From Ectocarpus siliculosus (taxonomy: Eukaryota; Sar; Phaeophyceae; Ectocarpales; Ectocarpaceae), in NCBI GenBank assembly GCA_000310025.1, contig FN649728.1, positions 1,125,028-1,189,027 of the forward strand: a DNA stretch of 64,000 nucleotides. The letters are read 5' to 3'. Under the pieces are notes generated by a model. The model did no database searches and was not told the DNA's origin. It saw only the letters and a program-made list of their open reading frames with translations. Positions 2,724 through 64,000 of the stretch are shown here, piece by piece. Numbering within the stretch: the first letter of the stretch is position 1; each line of letters begins with the position of its first letter. Position numbers and translations under genes: made by a program.

Positions 2724-5700
2724 CTTCCAGAAGTACCTGACGACCGCCTTCAGGCGCTTCGGTCGTACTTCGAGAACCTGGGGGAACTCCCTGACCATGC
2801 CGCTAACCGTCAAGGGCTGGAGGCCGACCTCCGTCCTTAGAGGAGACGACGACGTCGGGCGGTAAAACGGGGGCATCAGGTGGGGGTGCGGAAGAAAGGA
2901 CGTGTGAAAAAAAGGCGTGTGAGGGGATTCGAGTCCGGGCTAATATTGGACAACCACCACAACAGAGAGGGGGGGGGGGGGGGTACTCATAGTCGTGCAT
3001 GCCGTAGTCGTTTGACCATTGACCTCGCATCCCTACAAAGCCGGGACGGAGCACGCCGGGTTCTCACCGGACCAGGCTCTCACATCACCAAGCGCGAAGC
3101 GCCGTGAGGTATTCGGCGAGTCGCATGAAGGGTGAGCTGCATCCTGCTAAGGGTGTTCGGCATCTTGTGCTTACTTCCTTGCGTACGGATGACAGCTACG
3201 TATGACTTAATTTATTTTCTGGTGCTTTCACTTCCAGAGACAGTTATAAGCACTGTGTAACTGCCTCGAGGAAGCTTGACCATTTTAACACAACGTGGTG
3301 CGATCATCCCCCGTTGCGCGGAGTGAGGGTTCTCGACCCCGCACAACATGATCTACTCGACCACCATTATGGTTACCGCAAAAAAAAAAAACGAGGTAAA
3401 AAAAAAAAAACGGTAACCTGGTTGCCGAGTTCACGAAGTGAATTGGCTTGTTTTACAACGTCGTTGCCAAGCGACGAAAACCCAATCCCGATGGCAAACA
3501 CCGAGTGGGGGGGCTTGTTTTACAACGTCGTTGCCAAGCGACGAAAACCCAAACCCCGATGGCAAACACCGGGGGGGGCGGCATCAGGTGGGGGTGCGGA
3601 AGAAAGGACGTGTGAAAAAAAGGCGTGTGAGGGGATTCGAGTCCGGGCTAATATTGGACAACCACCACAACAGAGAGGGGGGGGGGGGGTACTCATAGTC
3701 GTGCATGCCGTAATCCTTGGACCATTAACAGAGAGGGGGGGGGGGGGGGATGCGAAGGATGATCAGGATGTTGGTGCCTTGATGAACGTCTGTATTTCTT
3801 CTAAGCGTACAGTGTCGAAAATATTGGACTGCCTTCCACATGCGTCAAGGGGGGGTGCCGACGAAAGGGGGTACGGTAGATCGCGCGGGTGGGGAGAGGA
3901 TCACGGCAGTACCGGGACGAAATGATGTTTTCCTTTGCGTTATTTAAGACAATCAAAAGGAGGAGAGTACGTCCATGAAGCATCCAACAAAGTCAAAATC
4001 AGCATAGCATCGCACCCAAAAGACAAAAGACAAAAGTGATCCCATCTTAGAGGGCTGGTTGTTCTGCACTGGAGTCGCTGTTTACCTGAGATAGTCGATG
4101 ACCTCTATGACGTCGTTCTCCATCTTTATGGACAGGAGGTTGGGGTACTCCGCCAGCATCGCGGCCACGTCTTCGTTTGTCCACGCTAGCGATTCGCGGT
4201 AGTACGACACCTGATCATCATCACCATCGTCATTGTTATCATACTGCCATATCATCATCACCATCCCGATCAACCACGAGGCAGAGGGGCGGTTCGGGCA
4301 CTACGGCAGCGTCTAAACTAAAACAGTCAGTCCCACCCCCTATCCTAGAGTCGCCCCCTTCCGCGTGTGCACACCGCACCTTCATCCGCAGGTTGTCCCA
4401 GGTGTGGTACATGAGCATGGGCGGACAGCCTGCAAGCGCGGATGCCAGCTGACCCTTCCCGCTTAACCCAAGCTCAGACCGGAGGTAACCAGCAACGTCC
4501 TTGGCGTCAGAGACGTCCATTCCGACCAGAGACGGTGTCGTCGTTAGCATCTCACGCACCTAGCGGGGAACAAAAAAAATAACAACAAAAAGTAACGGAA
4601 AAAATGTCACAACGGACCGACGACACGCCCAGACGACGGGTCCGAAAAAAAGGAAGCCAAAATTCTCCGACTACGGCAGCAGATACACCGTTGACAGAAT
4701 TTCTGTGTACCCGACAAAAGTCGATCGTTTTCGTGCCACACGCTAAATAAACAAGTGGACGAAAGGGTACGTCCGCCAACATAAACAAACACAACGTCCC
4801 GGGTGTTTGTTGCTGGTGCCTGCAGCATCGTAATCTGCGAAAGGAGCCAAAGCGCAATTGTCAGCATATTGGTCAGGACACACTGGGTGGGTGTACACGG
4901 CGAAAGGGAGGCTAGCCGCTACAGCCCCGCGCTTCGAAAAAAATTCCCTTGGCGCAGCCAAAAAAAACAAAAAAAAACACTAACGCGACGTCGCGCCCCC
5001 CGAGCGAGCACCAACATCAGCACCAACATCCCCCAAAGACTGTTCCAAATTCGAGCTATCTGCGGGGCCCCGTGCCTGCTTGCGGTCGAGCCCGACGCCC
5101 CCCCCCTCCCCTTCCTCCCCGAGAAGCAGGTCCAGCAGGTCCGGCAGCGTCTCCTCCACGAAGTAAACGTCTAGAAATTTCTTTCCGGTCTTGGAGCCCC
5201 CGGACGCAGGCTCGCGCCGGTACCACAACTCTCCTCGGAGGGGGGGGTACTTGGACCGAAGGTGGGCGATACCCTCCTGTGGGGTGGTGGAGAGGGGGTT
5301 ACGCGTGCGCACGGGGAGGGTGTACTCGTGTAAACGCATGCCGTAGTTGTTAGACCGTTGACTACGCGTCCCCGATAGGACGGAGGGGGTCAATCGTTGT
5401 CTGTTCGTACATACGAATACCGTGGGTTGCGTGAGATAGCACACCCCCTGGACCAATTTTCAAATCTCGATTTCTGTGCAGCACAAAGGCTGACTGTGCT
5501 GAAAGAGGTGGTGCTCGGACCTTCACGCCGAGAGCTTTCCAAGAACTTATATTTTGACGTTGACCTCTTCCTCGTTGTGGAGCGATTGGGCCTTGAAAAT
5601 TGATTCCGGGGGTGTGGTATCTTATGCAGCCAACGGCAATGTAGCGCTTTCGGTAAGATCGTTGACCTAACCTTGACATGGTCGATGAAGGGATTGTTGG

Positions 5701-53469: not shown

Positions 53470-53991
53470 GTGGCACATGGTGTAACTGTTGACGTGAGGT
53501 ACGGCCTGAACCAAAATCGATTTTTTGTGCACGTGGTTGACGTGGTGGAAGATTGACGCTGTTCGACCACCTCCTTCGCTTGTTGTTGTGTCTTACACCC
53601 GAGATGTCAAGCATGCGACCGCAGTGGCTTCCTGCTTTCGGGCGAGTGTATGTGTGGTGCTGATAATCAATGATCAGTGAAAACGCCTGCAGACTCAAAA
53701 GGGTTAACTCTGCCTTGGCTACTTGTATGCTATGCTCGTGATGGCCATGTCCCCATGGCACCGTAAACGGACGGTGCCAACAACCCACCAGCAGCAAACA
53801 GTACGCACCTGATATCTCCTGCTGTCGCCGTGCGCTCCGCCCACTGCTGCTGTAGCGATGGCTGTAGCGATGGCTGTAAGGCTTTTTGTGTTGTGTCCAG
53901 GAGCTGGCGAGGCGCTGGTGGGGGTGGCGCAGATTGGAGTACAACGGACAGCCCCGTGAGAGTGTTCCCTTCTGTTGACTTCTGAGGTTCG
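53470..53991. other. Flank between the hypothetical gene and the MULE
   Basis: No gene is seen. A small tandem of gatggctgtagc occurs at about 53858-53880. This is host sequence up to the target-site duplication. Confidence 0.5.
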
Positions 53992-54000
53992 TCGACGGGA
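53992..54000. repeat. Target-site duplication, left copy
   Basis: TCGACGGGA, repeated exactly at 62125-62133 just outside the other end of the MULE. A 9-bp duplication is typical of the Mutator superfamily. Confidence 0.9.
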
Positions 54001-54002
54001 CC

Positions 54003-54130
54003 GCCGGTCGTGCATACGCCAAAGCTGGCGAGATAAAAAGGTTCTCCAGCTGGAAAACGCCTCCCAGAACCACACCCTACAACGCCTCATTTGAATTGAA
54101 CGGGTCACACCGCCGCAGCAACAACGGCTG
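54003..54130. repeat. MULE terminal inverted repeat, left
   Basis: 128 bp starting gccggtcgtgcatacgccaa. It is the exact inverse of 61992-62119 by eye. The outer two bases of the element (54001-54002) are not shared. Confidence 0.93.
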
Positions 54131-54201
54131 GCGGCCAACGCGATAGTAGCGGCGTTCCCTTCAGCAGCTCACACCAGCCTCATACCAGTCTACGACAGCA
54201 G

Positions 54202-57200
54202 ATGGAGGTTGATTCCGCTGCGGCTGAGGCAAGCTCTTGGCAGCTGGAGGAGGTGCTGGCTTGTAGCGAGGACGAGACGCTCGATGTTGGTGGGGAGGAG
54301 GAAGCTGCTGGGCTTCCTTTCGACGCCGCCGAAGGCGAAGATAGCGATGACGAGCCCTCGCCTGCAGGTGGTGCAGGCCTCTGGGACCCATCTCTAGGTA
54401 TGGCAGGCTATAAACGTATGGGTATGGCAGGTTAGTTCGCCGTGTTGTTGGTACGTTGTTTTGTTGGTACGTTACTCATCCGCGTGCTCCGATGTTTTCA
54501 CCCGCGCGCACCTGGGTTTGACTCGCTTGCACAGGGGGGATCGCGACCCTTGAAGAAGAGATAAAGAAACTAGAGTTCCCCAACCTCGAAGACGGGACCG
54601 GCAACTTTGGGGAGAAAACCATGGACAACGCAGTCGCGATGTTGATGGCGAAGACCGGACGCGGCTTCAGCCTGAAGAGAGAGAATAAAACAAAGGTGAC
54701 GTTGCGTGTTTCCATGTGTTGTTGGTGTGTGCGAAAGATGCCTGTGGGCTCGGCTTTTTCGTCTCGTCCACCGTAATCGCCTTATGATTAGCGACATGCG
54801 CAGCCTCTCATGTTGGACATCCGACGGCTGCTGACATCTGAATGTGTTGCCGCCGCCCCCCTCCAGCTTTTCACGAAAAAGCAGGAAAAGAACTCCCGCA
54901 TGCGAAACAGATGGAGCTCCGTATGGATCAAGTGCTGCCAGGGGGGGAAGCCGAGAGCGTGTCAACGTGTCGCGGATCCGAGCGCTCGCCGCAACACAAA
55001 GTCACAGAAGGTTTGTCTGCCTGAAGTACGAACCGATGTGGAGCTCCCGATGTTGAGCTCTCGCCACCGTTGTGTCTCAGCTCCTCTTTTTAGCGCGTCG
55101 GGTGACGAGTCATCTGACAAGTCAACGGAGGAGTCGCGATGGGAAATGGACATTGGGCGCGCTTTGTTGTTGAACTTCATTTCTTTTTGGCGCCGATTGA
55201 ACATGATCGCTGCATACATGGACTTTTCGGGACATCGTCCGCGGTTGAACGTTCTGAGCTGCTGCGCTGTAGTCCCCCTCTCTCTGCAATATGAAGCGCT
55301 CGAAAACGCGAGCGTCGACGCAAGGAGTAGTTGTGTGCCGGGTCAGGACCTTTTGTTGGTCGCACGGCGGCCGCACCTCTTCGCTGTGGTCTCCGTTGTG
55401 CGGGCGATGCTCCAACGCGTTCTTCCGGCAAATTTGTTGGCTTTTCTGTTGTTGCTTGCTTGCTGGTTGCGCACCCTCTGCGCTGTAGTTGTCGAGGAAA
55501 GCACCGCAACAAGGGACGTAGGTGAGTCCACCTCCCGTGTGTATGTGTGTGTGTGTGCGGTTTGTCTTCGTGCGTATGAAACGCATGGAACGCAAATGGC
55601 GTAACGCTAAATGGCCATCGCTCTTCGCGCGGACACACATATTTCTTCTGTACCCTCACAACACTGTCGTGTTGTTTATACCCTGTCCGAATCCCAGGTG
55701 GGTTGCGAGTTCCACTTGGGGCTGTGGTGGGGGGCCGACATGAATACACCGCAAGTTGCAAAGGTGAGTTAAGTTGAGGGGAAGTACGTCGGTACAATGG
55801 ATAGATCGCGTTGGATGCGTTAATGTAGGCAGCCCAAAGCTAGACATTCTTAACAAATGATGTTCACGCGGGTTCGAATCCCAGCTCTGACGCTTTGGAC
55901 TCAGGAGGCACCCTTGATATATTTTGCCAGCACCGCATGGCGAGGGGTCCGTCCCCGGACATCACTGCCGACTGCACCTTACCAAATCAACTGCGCGTAG
56001 CCTGAGGTATGACAGGAGCGCACCCGCTTGTTTGAACATGGAGACCTTGCGATCATGTGCGTACTGTTGACACTGCTTCGCTTGCCTCCCGATACCGGAT
56101 GCGCAGGGAAAGGTTTGCCTCGCGCATCTTACCCCCGATCCAGATTCAGCCGGAATGGAGCACGAGCGCCCACGACGCTACGAAAACGACGTGAGCGAGG
56201 AGGACATCGAGAAGGAATCCGAACTCATCCGTCTGCTACACTTCAAAAATTTGCCAACGATAGAGATCCACAAGGCTTTCGAGGACATCGGAAAGAGGCT
56301 GGGGAGAGCCGGAAAGCAAAAGGTGAGTGGGCGAGAGTGTAGTTTGCGGTAGTAAACGCTACCTAGACGGCGCGACGGGGGGGGGTAAGGGGGGAGTACT
56401 CATCGCCGTGCATGCCGCAGTCGTTAGACCGGTGACATGGCATCCCTACAAAGCCGGGACGGAATCATGCCGGCTTGTCACCGGACCAGTCTGTGACATC
56501 ACCAAGCGCGAAGCACCGTGAGGTATTCGCCGAGTCGCATGGGGCGTGCCGCTACATCCAGCTGGGTGTGCGGCGTGTTGGGCTAAGGATGACAGCTGCG
56601 AGTAACCCTGAATTTGTTTTCGTGCTGCACTCTTCCAGAGACAGCAGTAAGGACAGTGTCAATACGTTGAGGGTGCTCGACCAATTCAACAGAAAGTGGT
56701 GCCACCATCCCCTTTGCGCAGAGTGAAGGTTGTCCACCCCGCACACCATGATGTACTCGACCACCATCATGTTTGCCGCTAACAAACACCAAGGCGACAA
56801 AAAGTGGCAACCTTTTTGTCGAGCTCACAAAGCCATCGGCGTGTTGCCGAGCGACAAAAACCCACGGGAGGAACGGGGGGTAGCCCAAAAGTGGGGTGAT
56901 GACGAATTATGTAACCGGCGGCATTTTCGTTGAAACCATTCTTGTTTCGTCTGCATGCTTTCGTCCGAGTACACCCTAACCGAGTTCACTGCCGGGTTGT
57001 CCATGTTTCCGTTAGGTGCGAAGCATGAGGGATGCGTTCGACGCAGAACGTAAGGCCGACAACGGAGTGTTCAACGACGCCCAGCTGTTCGTTTCGCACC
57101 TCCAGCAGAGCGAGGCTTTCATGAGGTTCAAGGCAGACGAGCAGGGCCGCATCACGTCCATCGCCTGGGCATATCAGCAGCAGAAGTACAACGCCGTACG

Positions 57201-60200
57201 ATACCACTCCGTCATCGTCCAGGACAACACGTTCAACACGAACATGTGAGTGTAGTGTTAGACGCTCTTTGTTCAAGTCCCTTGGCACCCCAAGTTGTGG
57301 GGGCAATACTGTTGTCGAGAAAAGTGTCGACGGTATCTTCTTCTCCACCATCTCACGCATGCCACGTCCCTTCTCCACGATCTCATGCACGCCATGTCCA
57401 TTTCTTGTGCTTGTTGTGCCACGCCTCCTCCAACCAGATACAAGTTCCATCTTGCATTGATAGTCGTGGTGGACAAGGAGAACCACAGCCAGATTGCGAT
57501 GCAAGCTCTGCTGTCAGACGAGCGGTCGGAATCCTTCGAGTTCGTCTTCGAGTCGTTCAAGCAGCTCTGCGAAGGAGGAACCCCGGAGGTAAAACAAAGT
57601 ATGACAAGGCAATACAGTATGCACTCGCCCATAAATGGCGCCAGTCAATGTTAGAATAAAGGAACTGAACGCGATTTAGTTGAACACGACATGATCATGC
57701 GGTGAACTTCCTCCGGTCTACTGTGCTCGAATGTTGAATAAGGTGGTCTTCACTGACTGTGACGCAGCCGCGATGTTGGCAATCGCGAAGGTCTATCCAT
57801 CGGCCCTGAACAAGTTGTGCATCTGGCACACCATGGGGAACATCCGGGAGCATGGGGGGGGTCTTGAGAAGGGTGTCCTGGGTCAGGTTCTTCAACTTTT
57901 CAAGGCAGCGGCGTACGCGCAAACGGAGGAGGTGAGCCATCTTGGTTGGACATTGAATCATTTTTTTCGTGGGTGATGTTCCGCACGGATCTTCCACTTG
58001 CAGGTGTAGGCCGTGTTGTCCAACGCTTGAGAGATCTGCGATCGTAGAAGCGCGGGAATCGTCGCCGCCGCGTGCGGCTACACCCAACGGCCCGCTCTCC
58101 TTGTTTTGTCTATTTCATACGAAAGGTCCTTGGCACCTTCTTTCTCCCGGTCCATTTTCTTTCATCCCGTCGCGTGCTCCGTTACTTGTCACTCTCGCAG
58201 TATTTCCTGCAATGTAAAGGGGCGCTCCTCGACCTCTTGCCCCCGGAGAGCAAGATGTACGAGTACATGGAGAAGAACATCTTCGGCACAGGGTAAGCAC
58301 CGACTAGAATGACAGCCGATGCTAAGTAGGCCACGGACGCGTGACGTCTTGCTCCTCCTCCGTCGACGATGCCTTTCTCCTGTTTATTCTGTTTGAAGGT
58401 TCCGTCAGTTGGTGACGTCGTCCGTCTCGTGCCCACTAAGTTTGAGCCGTCCCGTAACGTGTGACAGGCGGGCTGGCAAATGGGCGTCGTACGTCCACCC
58501 TGGGCTGCACACTCTCGGCATTGCCTCCACGCAGCGTGTTGAGTGGATGAATGCTGCGGTGAAGAAGCTGGTGACCAGGAAGGGCGACATGGTCGACCTC
58601 GGCCGAGCGCTCCTAGGCAAGGTTCAGGATGACATCAACAGGACCCAAAGGTGGGCGTCCGGTTGTGACATTTGCGTGTACATATTTTGCGACACCAGCT
58701 GAGGCAACCCATGGTCCAGTGACCTCGACGCATTGCGTGGTTGAGTTCTGGCAACCTGTTCAGAAGGAAGGTGGTAGCATTTGAAGGTGGTAGCATTTGA
58801 ATTTTTGTGCCTGTCTCGTAGGTCGCCTCTCGACAACAAAGAGCAATTGACCAACCACGCGGAAGCACGCCCGTTGCATGTGGATGAGGTCAACTCAACG
58901 TTCGCGAGGTGGTATGTCGTCGGTAGTGCGTATGCACGACGGACTCGAGGCTTCCCAGGCGGCCCACACCAGAGATCCTTTGCAATGACGGGGACAAAAC
59001 ACAACCAGAGTAACAATACATTAATAGTCGCCGGCATTTCTACATCATGTTGTGTTGTGGCGCGTTTGGTTGACAAGTTTAGTGCTCTGCTCGTTGTGCC
59101 CCGTGCTTGCTAGACGAAACCTGGGAGGAACGGTCGCCCGAGTGGCTGTGCAGGGACACTCGTATGTGGAAAGCTTCAGGACCAAGCACCTGCGAACGTT
59201 CAACTTCGTCCTGAACGCAGTGAAGTACGAGCAGTGCAGCCAGCACGCCACGGAGGTTAGTTGTGGCGGCCTTCGCTTGCGGCGATGGACGGACCCAGAT
59301 TTTTTCTCCCCCATTACACCTAACCGTACCCCCCTCAGATGCGGTGCCTGACCAAGGAAAGTCACAGCGACGCGGCCATGAGTTGTGTCTTTTCCCCCCA
59401 TTTCCTTCACTCGCCAACCCGACTTCTGCGTGCCCGCTTGTATAGCACAAGGTTATGTAATGGAGTTGTACTTGCCTTCGAGTTGTGGAAGGCGATCAGT
59501 CTTTGTGGGCAGCACCAACGACGCTGCTGGTATTCATGTCAATGCCGAACCTGACTTCCCTCCCGAACCCCCCCCCCCCCCTGTCGCACACCGCCCTTAC
59601 CCATGGGCATGCCGTGTTGGCAGGACACTGAAGCACAGATCCTCGGGGCTCTCAGTTACGAGGCGATACCTGTCGTGCGTGACGAAGAGGCGGCGCGGAG
59701 ACTGTTCGAGGAGTTGGTGGCAGACCCGACGAAGGCGAACCTCACGTACGACACCGGCTCCGGAGAGTTGGTGGACCCTTCAATACCGACGTCCGAAGCC
59801 GCTGGTGTCTCCATGGTGTCCCGCACATCCGTGCCTCACTTCGCGGAGTTACTTCGTGACCAGAACGTCCACACGGTGGTGCGCATCACACCGATGTCTA
59901 CGGCGTCCGAGTGCGGTCACCTCGTCGCCCTTGGACCGGACGGCTTCTTCCTCTGCACGTGCCTGCGGCAGCTCGTCTACGGGCTACTTTGCCCGCACGC
60001 CATCAAGGCCTTGTGGTACCAGCGTGCCTCCCAATTCAACGGAGCAACCATTTCACCAAGGTGGCGTGACAGTGAGACGCCATGGACGATGGCAGCGCTG
60101 GCCGCTAAGCCTGCCAAGCTATCGACCGGAGCTGCGGGGCTGACGGGACCTGCGGGGCCTACCGGACAGATGCCGCCCGTCGACACCAGTCCGATCGTGT

Positions 60201-60951
60201 CGTCCCACTCCGGACCCAACTTGTCGGCCTACGCGTACGCCAACGGCGTCGCCTTAGGGAAGGAGCTGGGTGGTATGTTCAAAGAGGTCCCGTCTGTGGC
60301 GAGCATCCAACGCTTGATGGAGTCCATGAAGTTCACGCCAAGCAACAAATCGAGGTGGAGAAGCGGTCGTTACGAGACGAGTCAACGAGCCGGGTGTTCA
60401 CGGGAACTCTCCCCCGGCCCACCCCTGCCCTGCCGCAGGGAGACGCCGGGGACCCTGGTCGGGGGGGACGCGGCCGGGGGGGAAAGGGGTCTACCGGAAG
60501 AGGACGGGCAGGGGAAAAGGGTGACCCTGGAAGCAGCAGCCAGGGAAGCGGTGGCGGTGGAAACGGCGGCCGGCGAAGCGGTGGCAGGGGCGGAGGGACA
60601 GGCCACGGGCGCGCAGGGGGGGGCGTAAACTCTGCTGGTTTCGCTACGGGTTCGCCGAGCGGTACCACGGGGGTTCGCCGAGCGTCCCACCCTCCGGCAG
60701 GATCGGACACCACCAGCGCCGCGCCTATCGGCTTCCAGGCGGCACCCGTCAACGGGGCGCACACGTCCGAGGGCTTGGCGTTGCCGTTTCGTGCCCTGGA
60801 CAACGTGGACGTTTCTCGTCGCGGGGGGGGGCAGGCTTCGCCACCGTTCCAGACGACCGCCCATCTTGTTCAGTTGGGGCGTCTGCAACCACCGCCCCGT
60901 AAGAAGCAAACGGGGCCCAGCAAACGACACAAAAGTAGTAGTGCGCCGTAG
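54202..60951 (+). CDS. MULE transposase, FAR1-like N-terminus, DDE core, SWIM finger, collagen-like tail
   Basis: It catalyses cut-and-paste transposition of the element. Exons: 54202-54397, 54535-54695, 54867-55010, 55698-55763, one ending 56322 (first in-frame ATG 56155), 57016-57245, 57438-57588, 57743-57931, 58201-58292, 58468-58650, 58822-58908, 59114-59255, 59339 to about 59383, one from about 59455, and 59624 onward. An acidic start leads into a zinc-binding FAR1/WRKY-like segment (KCCQGGKPRACQ, VGCEFHLGLWWGAD). The DDE core is QDNTFNTNIYKF (first Asp), VFTDCDAAAM (second Asp), CIWHTMGNI, and STQRVEWMNAAVKKL (Glu). The SWIM finger is CTCLRQLVYGLLCPH (CxCx9CxH). Gly-x-y collagen-like runs follow, ending in basic PPPRKKQTGPSKRHK. 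The exon 55698-55763 and the exon at 56155 disagree in phase, so a small exon is missing there. Near 60345 the frame shifts by one, either an indel or an unrecognised intron. Confidence 0.85.
55788..55892 (+). ncRNA. tRNA-like sequence (tRNA-Leu/Ser-like remnant or SINE head)
   Basis: The 3' part, gcgggttcgaatcccagctc followed by TGACG, is a T-arm (B box) and acceptor strand as in long-arm nuclear tRNAs. The 5' end GTCGG can pair with CTGAC near the 3' end (five of seven positions). A 7-base loop CTTAACA between CATT and AATG would carry anticodon TAA (Leu). However, two T-stem pairs fail and the D-arm is not normal, so it is not a clear functional tRNA. It lies in the intron after the exon 55698-55763 of the MULE transposase. 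A tRNA-derived SINE or pseudogene is the likely reading. Confidence 0.4.
56376..56880. repeat. Repeat R1 copy inside a MULE transposase intron
   Basis: It matches 2985-3540 along its length in the same orientation: gtgcatgccg(c/t)agtcg, catccctacaaagccgggac, tcaccaagcgcgaag, gtgaggtattcg, atgacagct, tactcgaccaccat, gccgagcgacaaaaaccca. It lacks the first 110 bp of the longest copy and has one instead of two 67-bp units. It fills most of the 693-base intron between the exons ending at 56322 and starting at 57016. Confidence 0.85.
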
Positions 60952-61633
60952 TGGAGGAGACCGTTTACCTGTAGGACACGTCAGGAAAATGTAAAGCGTG
61001 TTGCCGATGCCTTACTCGGCGTTGCATTCGCTTTGTTACCGTTGGCGCGTGTTGGTTTGCGCGCGCGTGTGGATGTGTGTTGCGTGTGTTGGGGGGTCTG
61101 CCAACAGCATCTGTTGTGTCGGATTGGTATTATTTCCTTCGGTAGCCGGCCCGCCGCAGCAAGGAGAAGGGGGATTCGCTTGGAAAACCATTGCCGGTTG
61201 GCAGGGGTGGAGGGGCAAGAGTCTCTCGACCCCGCGGAGTCTTCGTTCTTCCCCGTGTCCGATATGTTTTGAGTTTTTTTTTGCGCGTTGGATGAGAGTA
61301 CCGCTGGTCCCTTTATCATGACCACTCATTGGAATTAAGTTGCAGCCTTGATTCGGCGTCGTGATGGTGTATCTTCTTTGCCCGTTGACATTTTATGCGG
61401 TTTCCCTAGAGCTCTCCGGTTTTGAAAGTACTCGCGTGTTCATGTTGGCAGTTGTCATGATGCTCCAAGAATCATATGATACAAACCAACTTTTCTTCTC
61501 TACGTCGACCGTCCGCACAACACGGAGGCAGCAGCTGCACGGACCACCACAAAAACCGCGACCATTTGGGATGACATCCGCGCCGCACCACCACGCTCTC
61601 CCCCCTAAAACACACTAAGACACGTCCTCGACT
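60952..61633. other. MULE 3' non-coding part
   Basis: From the transposase stop to the nested MITE. It is T/G-rich just after the stop and should contain the transposase 3' untranslated region. No further coding sequence is recognised. Confidence 0.6.
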
Positions 61634-61634
61634 A

Positions 61635-61849
61635 CCGTATACGACACAAGATGACACCCCCTGGACCGATTTTCAAAGCTCGACTACGCCACGACGAAGA
61701 AGATGCATAAACGAAACGATACACTTTCGGAGAGCTCTCGACCAGACAGCTTCAACGCCCCCGTTTTCGGCGCTGCGACTCTTTCTGCTGTTGATAAATC
61801 GAGCTTTCAAAATCGGTCGAGGGGGTGTGTTATCTTGTGTCGTATACGG
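61635..61849. mobile_element. MITE nested in the MULE, 215 bp, about 50-bp TIRs
   Basis: The left arm, 61635-61683 (ccgtatacgacacaagat...), is inverted at 61798-61849 (...atcttgtgtcgtatacgg) with only a few differences. A TA flanks each end (61633-61634 and 61850-61851), as expected for a Tc1/mariner-type or Stowaway-like MITE. It has no coding capacity. It is the same family as 5420-5636: both share the words ACACCCCCT and ATTTTCAAA at the same place in the arms. Confidence 0.85.
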
Positions 61850-61991
61850 TACACTAGCACTGGCAAATCAATGTACCTCGATTACACTGCAACATTTCCA
61901 AACTACGTCGTCCACATCATCCATGTCCATGTGGGTTGTCTGCTGCTGTTTTACGTGCGCGGCTACTGCTGCCATAGGTCTCAAGCGGATG

Positions 61992-62119
61992 CAGCCGTTG
62001 TTGCTGCGGCGGTGTGACCCGTTCAATTCAAATGAGGCGTTGTAGGGTGTGGTTCTGGGAGGCGTTTTCCAGCTGGAGAACCTTTTTATCTCGCCAGCTT
62101 TGGCGTATGCACGACCGGC
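61992..62119. repeat. MULE terminal inverted repeat, right
   Basis: 128 bp, the exact inverse of 54003-54130 by eye. The element ends about five bases later (tgtga) at 62124. Confidence 0.93.
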
Positions 62120-62124
62120 TGTGA

Positions 62125-62133
62125 TCGACGGGA
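62125..62133. repeat. Target-site duplication, right copy
   Basis: TCGACGGGA, identical to 53992-54000. Confidence 0.9.
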
Positions 62134-62992
62134 TCGCAGTGCAACTGCTTCACTACGTCGAGGGAAGATACCTTCCTGTTGCGCCGCAGCTCCTGTAGCG
62201 ACGGTGGCAAGGTTTTGCTGTGCGCGTGTGTGAAGTTCATCCAAAATCACATGCTGGCTCTCGACCGTGCCGTGAGGATGAAAATAGGGGTGCTTTCTAA
62301 ATATTATAAAAACAATAAATATTCGTGGGGAGCCATCTCGACACCTCTGCCCAGCCCACCCTCGCCTCGCCAAACGACCTCCTTGCCCACGATCTGGGAT
62401 CCTGCAAGCGGATCCGGACTGCTGTAAATGTGAGTTCAGCCTTTTGGTTGACCGTTGGTGAACATACGAGGTCAGGGTTTGAGCGCATCGTGCGCTCCGT
62501 GCCAAGTGCTCATCGGCGGGAGGAAGGAAGACAAGGAGAGGCTGTTTCAGCGCTTCTCGCCCACGGGGCAAGCGTACCGGGGCAAGCCGCGACCGCCCCA
62601 GAGTCGGGCCGTGCAGGGCCGTGCAAGAGCTCCATTTCTGGGAGGCAGCTCATCGTGCCTCGCGTGTCAAGAACAAAATCAGAATCCCGGAACCGTTCGG
62701 CGGATCTTCAACAAGTAATGTTTATTCGCTGTGTGCCGACCAGTCTCTCACCAGTTCTGAAGAGACCCACACACACCCACCCAACCCAGCAGGCACAGCA
62801 CGCACAGCACGCGGCATCACGAAGCAAGGTGAGGGAGTGCGTGACACGGAGTGCCGTAGGTGCCCCGTACGCGTGGACAGGGAGGGAGACTGGTAGTGAG
62901 ACCGATCGGCGCACACCAATGTAGTCATTGTTACTTCTTGTTCGAACTTCAACATAGTCCCGTCTCGTTTGCGCCGTTCATATACAGAGAGG
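62134..62992. other. Region upstream of the ankyrin gene
   Basis: It should hold the promoter or 5' exons of the ankyrin gene. An acceptor-like tatacag lies just before its first ATG. An open stretch at about 62455-62720 (GGRKEDKERLFQRFSP) has protein-like pieces in more than one frame but no clear domain. It might be a 5' exon or a decayed one. Confidence 0.4.
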
Positions 62993-64000
62993 ATGGACCT
63001 CAAGAAGGTGGACTTCATGCTGCAATTCGTGAAGCAATACAGGCAAGCCTTGGGTCAAGAACTTCAACGCCTCCAGGATGGGGGTCGCAGCAGAACCCTT
63101 GGCGACTTCGGATGGTTGGACTCCGGGGCACTCGATGCTTTCGCCGAGAGATACTTCGCCATCGACGCTGACGAGAGAACTACAACACTCGGCTTCGCTG
63201 CCTCGGAAGGAAACAATCACATGGTGAGATGTCTGTTAAGGTGGAAGGACAAGGACGAGCAAGACCAGTTCGGATACACGCCACTCATGAAAGCAGCCGA
63301 AAACGGCCACATGCCTGTCATGGAGACCCTGCTGGACCAGGGTGCCGATGCCACCTTTAGGCACCTCGACGACGGTAGTACTAGTATCATCGCTGCTGCT
63401 CTCGGAGGATATAATGAGATAGTCATTGCTCTGTTGAACAAGGGGGCTGACAAGGACTCTCCAGCCGCAAATGGACGGACACCACTGATGGAGGCGTCCA
63501 GAAAAGGCCACCTTCCTGTCGTGAAGACTCTACTGAACGCCGACGCGGATGTAACTCTCGCTGCCCATGGTCTCACAGACGAAGATTATTGCCTTGGAGA
63601 CAACTGTACTGCTCTCCACTTTGCTACAGCGGGAGGGCATCTTGGTGTAGTCAACGCCCTTTTGTCCAAAGGGGGATTGGAAATAGATGCGGTGGATACT
63701 GATGGAACCACGGCACTGCATTTGGCAGTAATAATGGGTAGGTCGCTGCCCATCATGGAGACCCTGCTGGTTGCTGGTGCCGATCCAGATATCCGTATTA
63801 ATACGGGTGGAGTCCAAGACTGCCCTCTCGAGACGGCCTGCCACTCTAAGGATAACATCGGCACTTACCATGTGTGTAAAACCCTTATCGACCACGGGGC
63901 CGACGTCAACTCTCGTTGTCCTTTTGGTTCGACACCGCTGCATCATGCGTGCGATTATAGCCAAAGTGATGCGGTACTGAGACTCCTCTTGCAGGCGGGT
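62993..64000 (+). CDS. Ankyrin-repeat protein, 5' part, open at the window end
   Basis: From ATG 62993 the frame is open for 336 codons and runs off the window. About 60 residues of charged helix (MDLKKVDFMLQFVKQYRQAL) precede at least seven ankyrin repeats, which serve protein-protein binding. The cores read TTLGFAASEGNNHMVRCLL, YTPLMKAAENGHMPVMETLL, RTPLMEASRKGHLPVVKTLL, CTALHFATAGGHLGVVNALL, TTALHLAVIMG, PLETACHSKDNIGTYHVCKT and STPLHHACDYSQSDAVLRLL, each with the usual GAD(V/x) turns. No stop or splice site interrupts it. An acceptor at 62986-62987 means the true start could be further upstream. It lies 870 bp beyond the MULE end. The C-terminal domain, if any, is outside the window. Confidence 0.9.
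   Translation, partial: MDLKKVDFMLQFVKQYRQALGQELQRLQDGGRSRTLGDFGWLDSGALDAFAERYFAIDADERTTTLGFAASEGNNHMVRCLLRWKDKDEQDQFGYTPLMKAAENGHMPVMETLLDQGADATFRHLDDGSTSIIAAALGGYNEIVIALLNKGADKDSPAANGRTPLMEASRKGHLPVVKTLLNADADVTLAAHGLTDEDYCLGDNCTALHFATAGGHLGVVNALLSKGGLEIDAVDTDGTTALHLAVIMGRSLPIMETLLVAGADPDIRINTGGVQDCPLETACHSKDNIGTYHVCKTLIDHGADVNSRCPFGSTPLHHACDYSQSDAVLRLLLQAG

Follow-up and report, generated by a model that had tools for sequence, protein, structure and literature searches.

What is the element that occupies positions 53992-62133 of a 64-kb stretch of Ectocarpus DNA (hereafter the window), and could this copy still move itself? An earlier note on this DNA had taken it for a young, complete and autonomous Mutator-like element (MULE). 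Our analysis identifies it, with high confidence, as a DNA transposon of the cut-and-paste type, from the Mutator (MULE) superfamily, that belongs to a low-copy family and inserted fairly recently, and that is probably not fully autonomous. Its anatomy is directly visible in the terminal inverted repeats (TIRs), the duplications, the transposase domain, an open gene model, related copies, deletion derivatives and the unoccupied site of a sister copy.

The element is bounded by long TIRs and a short direct duplication, arranged as follows.

53992-54000, forward strand: left target-site duplication, TCGACGGGA; one extra base, then the TIR
54002-54130, forward strand: left TIR in the 129-bp family form, of which 128 bp match the right TIR
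61992-62119, reverse strand: right TIR, without the family's outermost base
62125-62133, forward strand: right target-site duplication, TCGACGGGA, five nucleotides outside the TIR

Aligned with the reverse complement of 61992-62119, positions 54003-54130 showed complete identity (128/128), in agreement with the earlier claim of identical termini, and no other inverted pair of 60 nt or longer was reported in the 64 kb. From the other copies, the family TIR measures 129 bp and starts with CGCCGG. The 9-mer TCGACGGGA occurs exactly twice in the 64 kb, at the two places listed; since shuffles of the whole window contain a mean of 0.69 matches to it, the telling point is the position of these occurrences rather than their count. 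Among 20000 random pairs of 15-nt flanks drawn from the window, 7 had a 9-mer in common, and the observation of TIRs together with TCGACGGGA is real and beyond chance. The 9-bp target duplication claimed earlier is thus present at both ends, yet displaced from the termini by 1 and 5 nt: one extra C lies between the left TCGACGGGA and its TIR, while at the right end the outermost G of the TIR is absent and five nucleotides (TGTGA) precede TCGACGGGA, so that the ends are imperfect. A target-site duplication of 8-11 bp is part of the definition of MULEs in the available text of PMC6446971.

Between these ends lies a predicted transposase gene of 12 exons, in line with the earlier description of the element as intron-rich. 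The model begins with the ATG at 54202, has GT-AG boundaries at all 11 introns (11/11) and keeps a frame without internal stop before residue 932.

54202-54397, forward strand: predicted exon 1, with the ATG at 54202; GT-AG model with an open frame, the frame being kept in an old diverged copy
54535-54695, forward strand: predicted exon 2, from the gene model; frame kept in the old diverged copy
54867-55010, forward strand: predicted exon 3, Cys-containing, without Pfam match, from the model; frame kept in the old copy
56107-56322, forward strand: predicted exon 4, from the gene model
57016-57245, forward strand: predicted exon 5, with the putative first catalytic Asp, D309, at 57223-57225; gene model and domain match of the spliced protein
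57438-57588, forward strand: predicted exon 6, part of the MULE domain; taken singly, it matches PF10551 at E 1.2e-4, short of the cut-off
57743-57931, forward strand: predicted exon 7, part of the MULE domain, with the putative second Asp, D371, at 57755-57757; taken singly, it matches PF10551 at E 7e-5, short of the cut-off
58201-58292, forward strand: predicted exon 8, from the gene model
58468-58650, forward strand: predicted exon 9, with the putative catalytic Glu, E485, at 58541-58543, and Trp for Ser at 58545
58822-58908, forward strand: predicted exon 10, from the gene model
59114-59255, forward strand: predicted exon 11, from the gene model
59624-60951, forward strand: predicted exon 12, with a SWIM-like motif followed by a Gly/Arg-rich tail

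On the spliced protein, the MULE profile PF10551 matched over domain positions 1-99 of 99 with E 4.2e-19 and 69.2 bits (cut-off 27.6), and the ZSWIM1-3 RNaseH-like profile matched with E 1.7e-13. Residues D309, D371 and E485, which occur in the expected motifs as read by eye, we take to be the D-D-E catalytic residues; together with the profile match and the long TIRs, these putative residues support the earlier view of a structurally complete MULE. The SWIM-like motif of exon 12, C-x-C-x(9)-C-x-H, is encoded at 59954-59998 (CxC...CxH at residues 708-722), and the SWIM profile reached 16.4 bits, under the Pfam cut-off of 19.6. According to the available text of PMC6446971, a zinc finger (SWIM, FLYWCH, CCHC or C2H2) is common in MULEs, though not universal. 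For the N-terminal part of the protein, no DNA-binding family or domain was found in Pfam. In NCBIfam, the transposases of IS256 and IS1249 were matched, but solely at scores under the threshold. A solved-structure search with the transposase gave a single match, at E 0.81, and six peptide patterns revealed no relative in viral contigs. Because the MULE domain is divided among exons 5-7, and neither exon 6 nor exon 7 reaches the cut-off by itself, the family is missed by a genome-wide domain search; none of the 45 places found by such a search (0/45) was a copy of this low-copy family.

The element carries ten other open frames, including six in the interval from the end of the gene to the right TIR, and none had a Pfam match at E 0.01 that would indicate a second gene. 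The same interval holds a nested repeat.

61633-61851, no strand assigned: short nested element with inverted repeats and a TA on either side, by its form a Tc1/mariner-type MITE

This MITE is present in all seven family copies that reach that far (7/7). A first look at the genome gave 1402 candidates for it, and the 40 that were scored comprise the seven inside the family and 33 others at 89-92%. A 217-bp element, TcMar-N1_Ec32, is named in the available text of PMC12477816; the nested MITE has the same size. An older repeat is likewise carried by the transposon in intron 4 (56375-56803), with pieces 79-87% like window positions 2962-3403.

Other copies, in which the earlier note had seen a way to check its reading, were sought in an assembly of 189.5 Mb in 492 contigs. 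The window belongs to this assembly, whose host is Ectocarpus or a close relative: two forward primers for Ectocarpus reference genes from PMC3027116 each have one exact match in it, their reverse partners match exactly at distances of 47 and 81 nt, and the paper had selected these genes because they are conserved among its strains. The TIR gave 18 matches at 12 places, the last exon (query 59624-60330) was found at eight places and exon 6 at six. We aligned eight copies, in part or whole, amounting to ~55 kb altogether, and left out the older or cut copies on contigs C24 and C465 and at a second place on C2, together with a copy on C6 that is interrupted by an insertion and then by N. The insertion in the C6 copy (L026) is 7.6 kb long, is flanked by a 5-bp repeat and has a 62-bp internal direct repeat. 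The window copy is 99.8% identical to the copies on C457, C11, C33 and C10, 99.5% to that on C2 and 99.3% to that on C460, and differs from that on C9 at 16 of 7943 positions, N excluded. The older relative on C24 shows ~88% identity in its longest match.

Both ends are present in five copies, namely those in the window and on C460, C11, C2 and C457. Exact adjacent duplications flank three of these five (10 bp in C460, 10 bp in C11 and 9 bp in C2), and C457 has no recognisable duplication. When joined, the flanks of C460 match contig C91 at 99% over 315 bp, 250 to the left and 65 to the right of the junction, and at this place C91 shows one TGCGGAGGAA, against the two that flank the element in C460; the sequence to the right of the junction is repeated elsewhere at 75-86%. 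The C91 site is direct evidence for insertion of the sister copy C460 with a 10-bp duplication. An empty site with a single TCGACGGGA, which the earlier note had proposed to look for in other strains, was not found for the window copy in its own assembly: its 500-bp flanks, searched singly and joined, gave a full match only at their own place, all remaining matches being partial repeat matches. Likewise, the joined flanks of C11, C2 and C457 matched themselves in the assembly (6/6 matches) and revealed no empty site. Copies C2 and C10, the latter without a right end, have one common internal deletion junction and unrelated left flanks, from which it follows that the deleted form moved; this non-autonomous form would have been mobilised by an enzyme from elsewhere.

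These comparisons also bear on whether the termini might be old and have been held identical by gene conversion, or by collapse of repeats in the assembly, either of which eight near-identical copies would permit. We regard this as very improbable: the copies differ in indels, deletions and flanks and hence are not collapsed, and conversion of the termini sits poorly with a likeness of ~99.8% that extends over the whole 8.1 kb, beyond the TIR, and with the unoccupied site of a sister copy. We keep to a fairly recent insertion. By itself, the 128-bp identity would limit divergence only to less than about 2-3%, and we did not date the insertion by the TIRs, since 128 bp are too few for a clock. 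The better evidence of youth is the number of private substitutions, 4 in 8118 bp relative to seven other copies, and it upholds the young insertion proposed earlier. If the rate for Ectocarpus in the available text of PMC10254074 is applied (4.07e-10 substitutions per site and generation), the branch private to the window copy represents ~1.2 million generations, an estimate that rests on four events, has a wide range and would be lowered by assembly errors. Such an age is young for a transposon and is no proof of activity today.

The autonomy that the earlier note had ascribed to the element is not supported for the window copy. Near 60331, this copy lacks one base that is present in all seven other copies covering the site (7/7), and its shifted frame meets a stop at 60626-60628, whereas the other copies run on to 60951. 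The protein keeps 833 residues, after which 98 altered residues replace 206, and since the missing base replaces these last 206 residues, the window copy is probably not fully autonomous. In addition, the codon at 58545 reads Trp in the window copy alone, directly after the putative catalytic Glu, and Ser in all five other copies covering it (5/5). Were the altered C-terminal tail dispensable, the window copy might itself be active and autonomous, as the frameshift comes only after the D-D-E residues and the SWIM-like motif, and the catalytic exons are open; against the presence of the missing base in every other covering copy, the loss of the original tail and the private Trp, we consider this decidedly improbable.

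A related question is whether errors of the assembly account for the missing base as well as for the private changes, the real copy being intact. Error-like clusters, in which the changed base equals a neighbouring one, do occur in two other repeats. In the C2 copy (L022), the equivalent of window 59633-60022 holds a substitution cluster of this kind, including 10 G-to-A changes that all follow an A, two of them common to C457. G-to-A hypermutation (RIP- or deaminase-like) was considered for C2 and rejected, as 11 of its 14 private substitutions copy the preceding base. The same question was put to nine loci from other MULE families, and in another repeat, L050, all 13 changed bases (13/13) are identical to the base that comes next in the displayed orientation. 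The C2 and L050 clusters most likely arose through errors of read phasing during assembly, which they fit better than a biological process; such errors matter for anyone who counts differences between the repeat copies of this assembly. Elsewhere in the family, private substitutions equal the preceding base in 17/48 cases in C460 (the following base in 14/48), 3/5 in C11, 3/4 in C33 and 0/8 in C9. The window copy has no such excess, with 1/4 equal to the preceding and 1/4 to the following base, and its missing base is not within a homopolymer. An intact copy disguised by assembly errors is therefore unlikely, and we retain the reading of a copy that is probably impaired.

Among the sister copies, the transposase gene of C457 has an early frameshift; parts of the element are absent from C11, C2, C10 and C33; and C9 has a base missing in exon 7, plus unread bases. 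The sole copy open throughout is C460, with 1039 residues. It lies on an older branch and has 14 replacement against 4 silent private changes, a neutral-looking ratio. By inspection, two of its private residues, W21 and V35, occur in the old C24 copy as well, so that some of the changes counted for C460 fall on the stem leading to the young group. The old C24 copy keeps the frame across exons 1-3, with gaps of only 3 and 6 bp, and has one splice acceptor that fails to align. Its identity is 464/492 in exons 1-3 versus 282/301 aligned positions in introns 1-2; since exons and introns are about equally identical and an acceptor is unaligned, this copy is no demonstration of purifying selection on the protein. 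The recent activity suggested earlier is supported only indirectly, by the youth of the copies, by the presence of deletion derivatives at sites unrelated to each other and by the unoccupied site of a sister copy.

MULE transposases bind the TIRs of an element, excise it and insert it via a staggered cut, which leaves duplications of 8-11 bp. In the present family, one member would express a spliced transposase, whose RNase-H-like D-D-E core, perhaps aided by the SWIM-type finger, would bind the 129-bp TIRs. The enzyme would then excise the element and join it to the target by a staggered cut, fill-in of which would leave the 9-10 bp duplication, and the window copy would have been inserted fairly recently in this way, with slightly imprecise ends. 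The splicing, expression, TIR binding, chemistry and present activity of the transposase are what we infer from this anatomy.

In maize, MuDR/Mutator elements combine long TIRs and 9-bp duplications with a MULE D-D-E domain, a SWIM finger and deletion derivatives moved in trans. The window family resembles them in its long TIRs, duplications of 9-10 bp, D-D-E domain, SWIM-like motif and moved deletion derivatives, but differs in having no recognisable second gene, with the nested MITE in that place. Among stramenopiles, the available text of PMC6446971 (Dupeyron et al. 2019) describes MULE-Diatoms (group 37), with TIRs of 123-124 bp, one gene and a SWIM finger. Compared by description, MULE-Diatoms and the window family are alike in their stramenopile host, in TIRs of similar length (123-124 and 129 bp) and in a single gene, with a SWIM finger in the former and a sub-threshold SWIM-like motif in the latter. 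They differ in the target-site duplication, which is unrecorded there for MULE-Diatoms and measures 9-10 bp in the window family.

Closer to the host, Table 1 of PMC12477816 lists one MuDR family for Ectocarpus sp. 7, with 56 copies, 42 of them called intact. That family is like the window family in its superfamily, its same or near host and its young copies, and unlike it in number, at 56 copies against eight places with the last exon. An abundant MULE is also present in our assembly, where 28 of the 45 MULE-domain places score almost alike, and it is probably the MuDR family of that table; at six loci, it is ~27% identical to the window-family protein over 154 residues. Among loci L047-L052 of the abundant MULE, five of the six compared carry 1-2 substitutions relative to their majority sequence across 3.3 kb. 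The window family is probably a second, low-copy family beside the tabulated one, told apart from it by copy number. As manual curation in PMC12477816, according to its available text, was aimed chiefly at families of ~100 kb or more, a family that amounts to ~55 kb in eight aligned copies falls below this limit and may be unlisted.

Titles and abstract openings on MULE, Mutator or MuDR in brown algae, stramenopiles and kelp contained no account of the window element. The earlier impression that nothing of the kind had been described from such a genome stands in part, with one MuDR family already tabulated for Ectocarpus in PMC12477816 and the window family perhaps unlisted. A bolder reading would make the window element an undescribed second brown-algal MULE lineage, in which 11 introns split the catalytic domain and evade intron-blind scans, and which is transposing today from an intact source together with its deletion derivatives and nested MITE. 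We regard that combination as possible but doubtful, and keep to a low-copy MULE family with a fairly recent, probably not fully autonomous insertion in the window.

The family offers a clean example of a young brown-algal DNA transposon family, with an intron-rich predicted transposase gene, moved deletion derivatives and one unoccupied site, and it illustrates that domain searches blind to introns can miss such families. It leaves knowledge of the MULE mechanism unchanged. Should one of its source copies prove active, it could serve as a mutagenesis tool in Ectocarpus.

Three further observations concern the neighbourhood and the wider genome. At C1:2917772-2918026, a MULE domain lies within an open frame of 2084 residues, possibly a transposase-derived host gene or a fused element. 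In the window, 62900-64000 is taken up by an open frame rich in ankyrin repeats (Ank_2, E 1e-47), which opens ~770 bp past the insertion. On the other side, at 53621-53709, two short pieces adjoin each other that lie ~280 bp apart at many other places in the genome, perhaps marking an internally deleted repeat.
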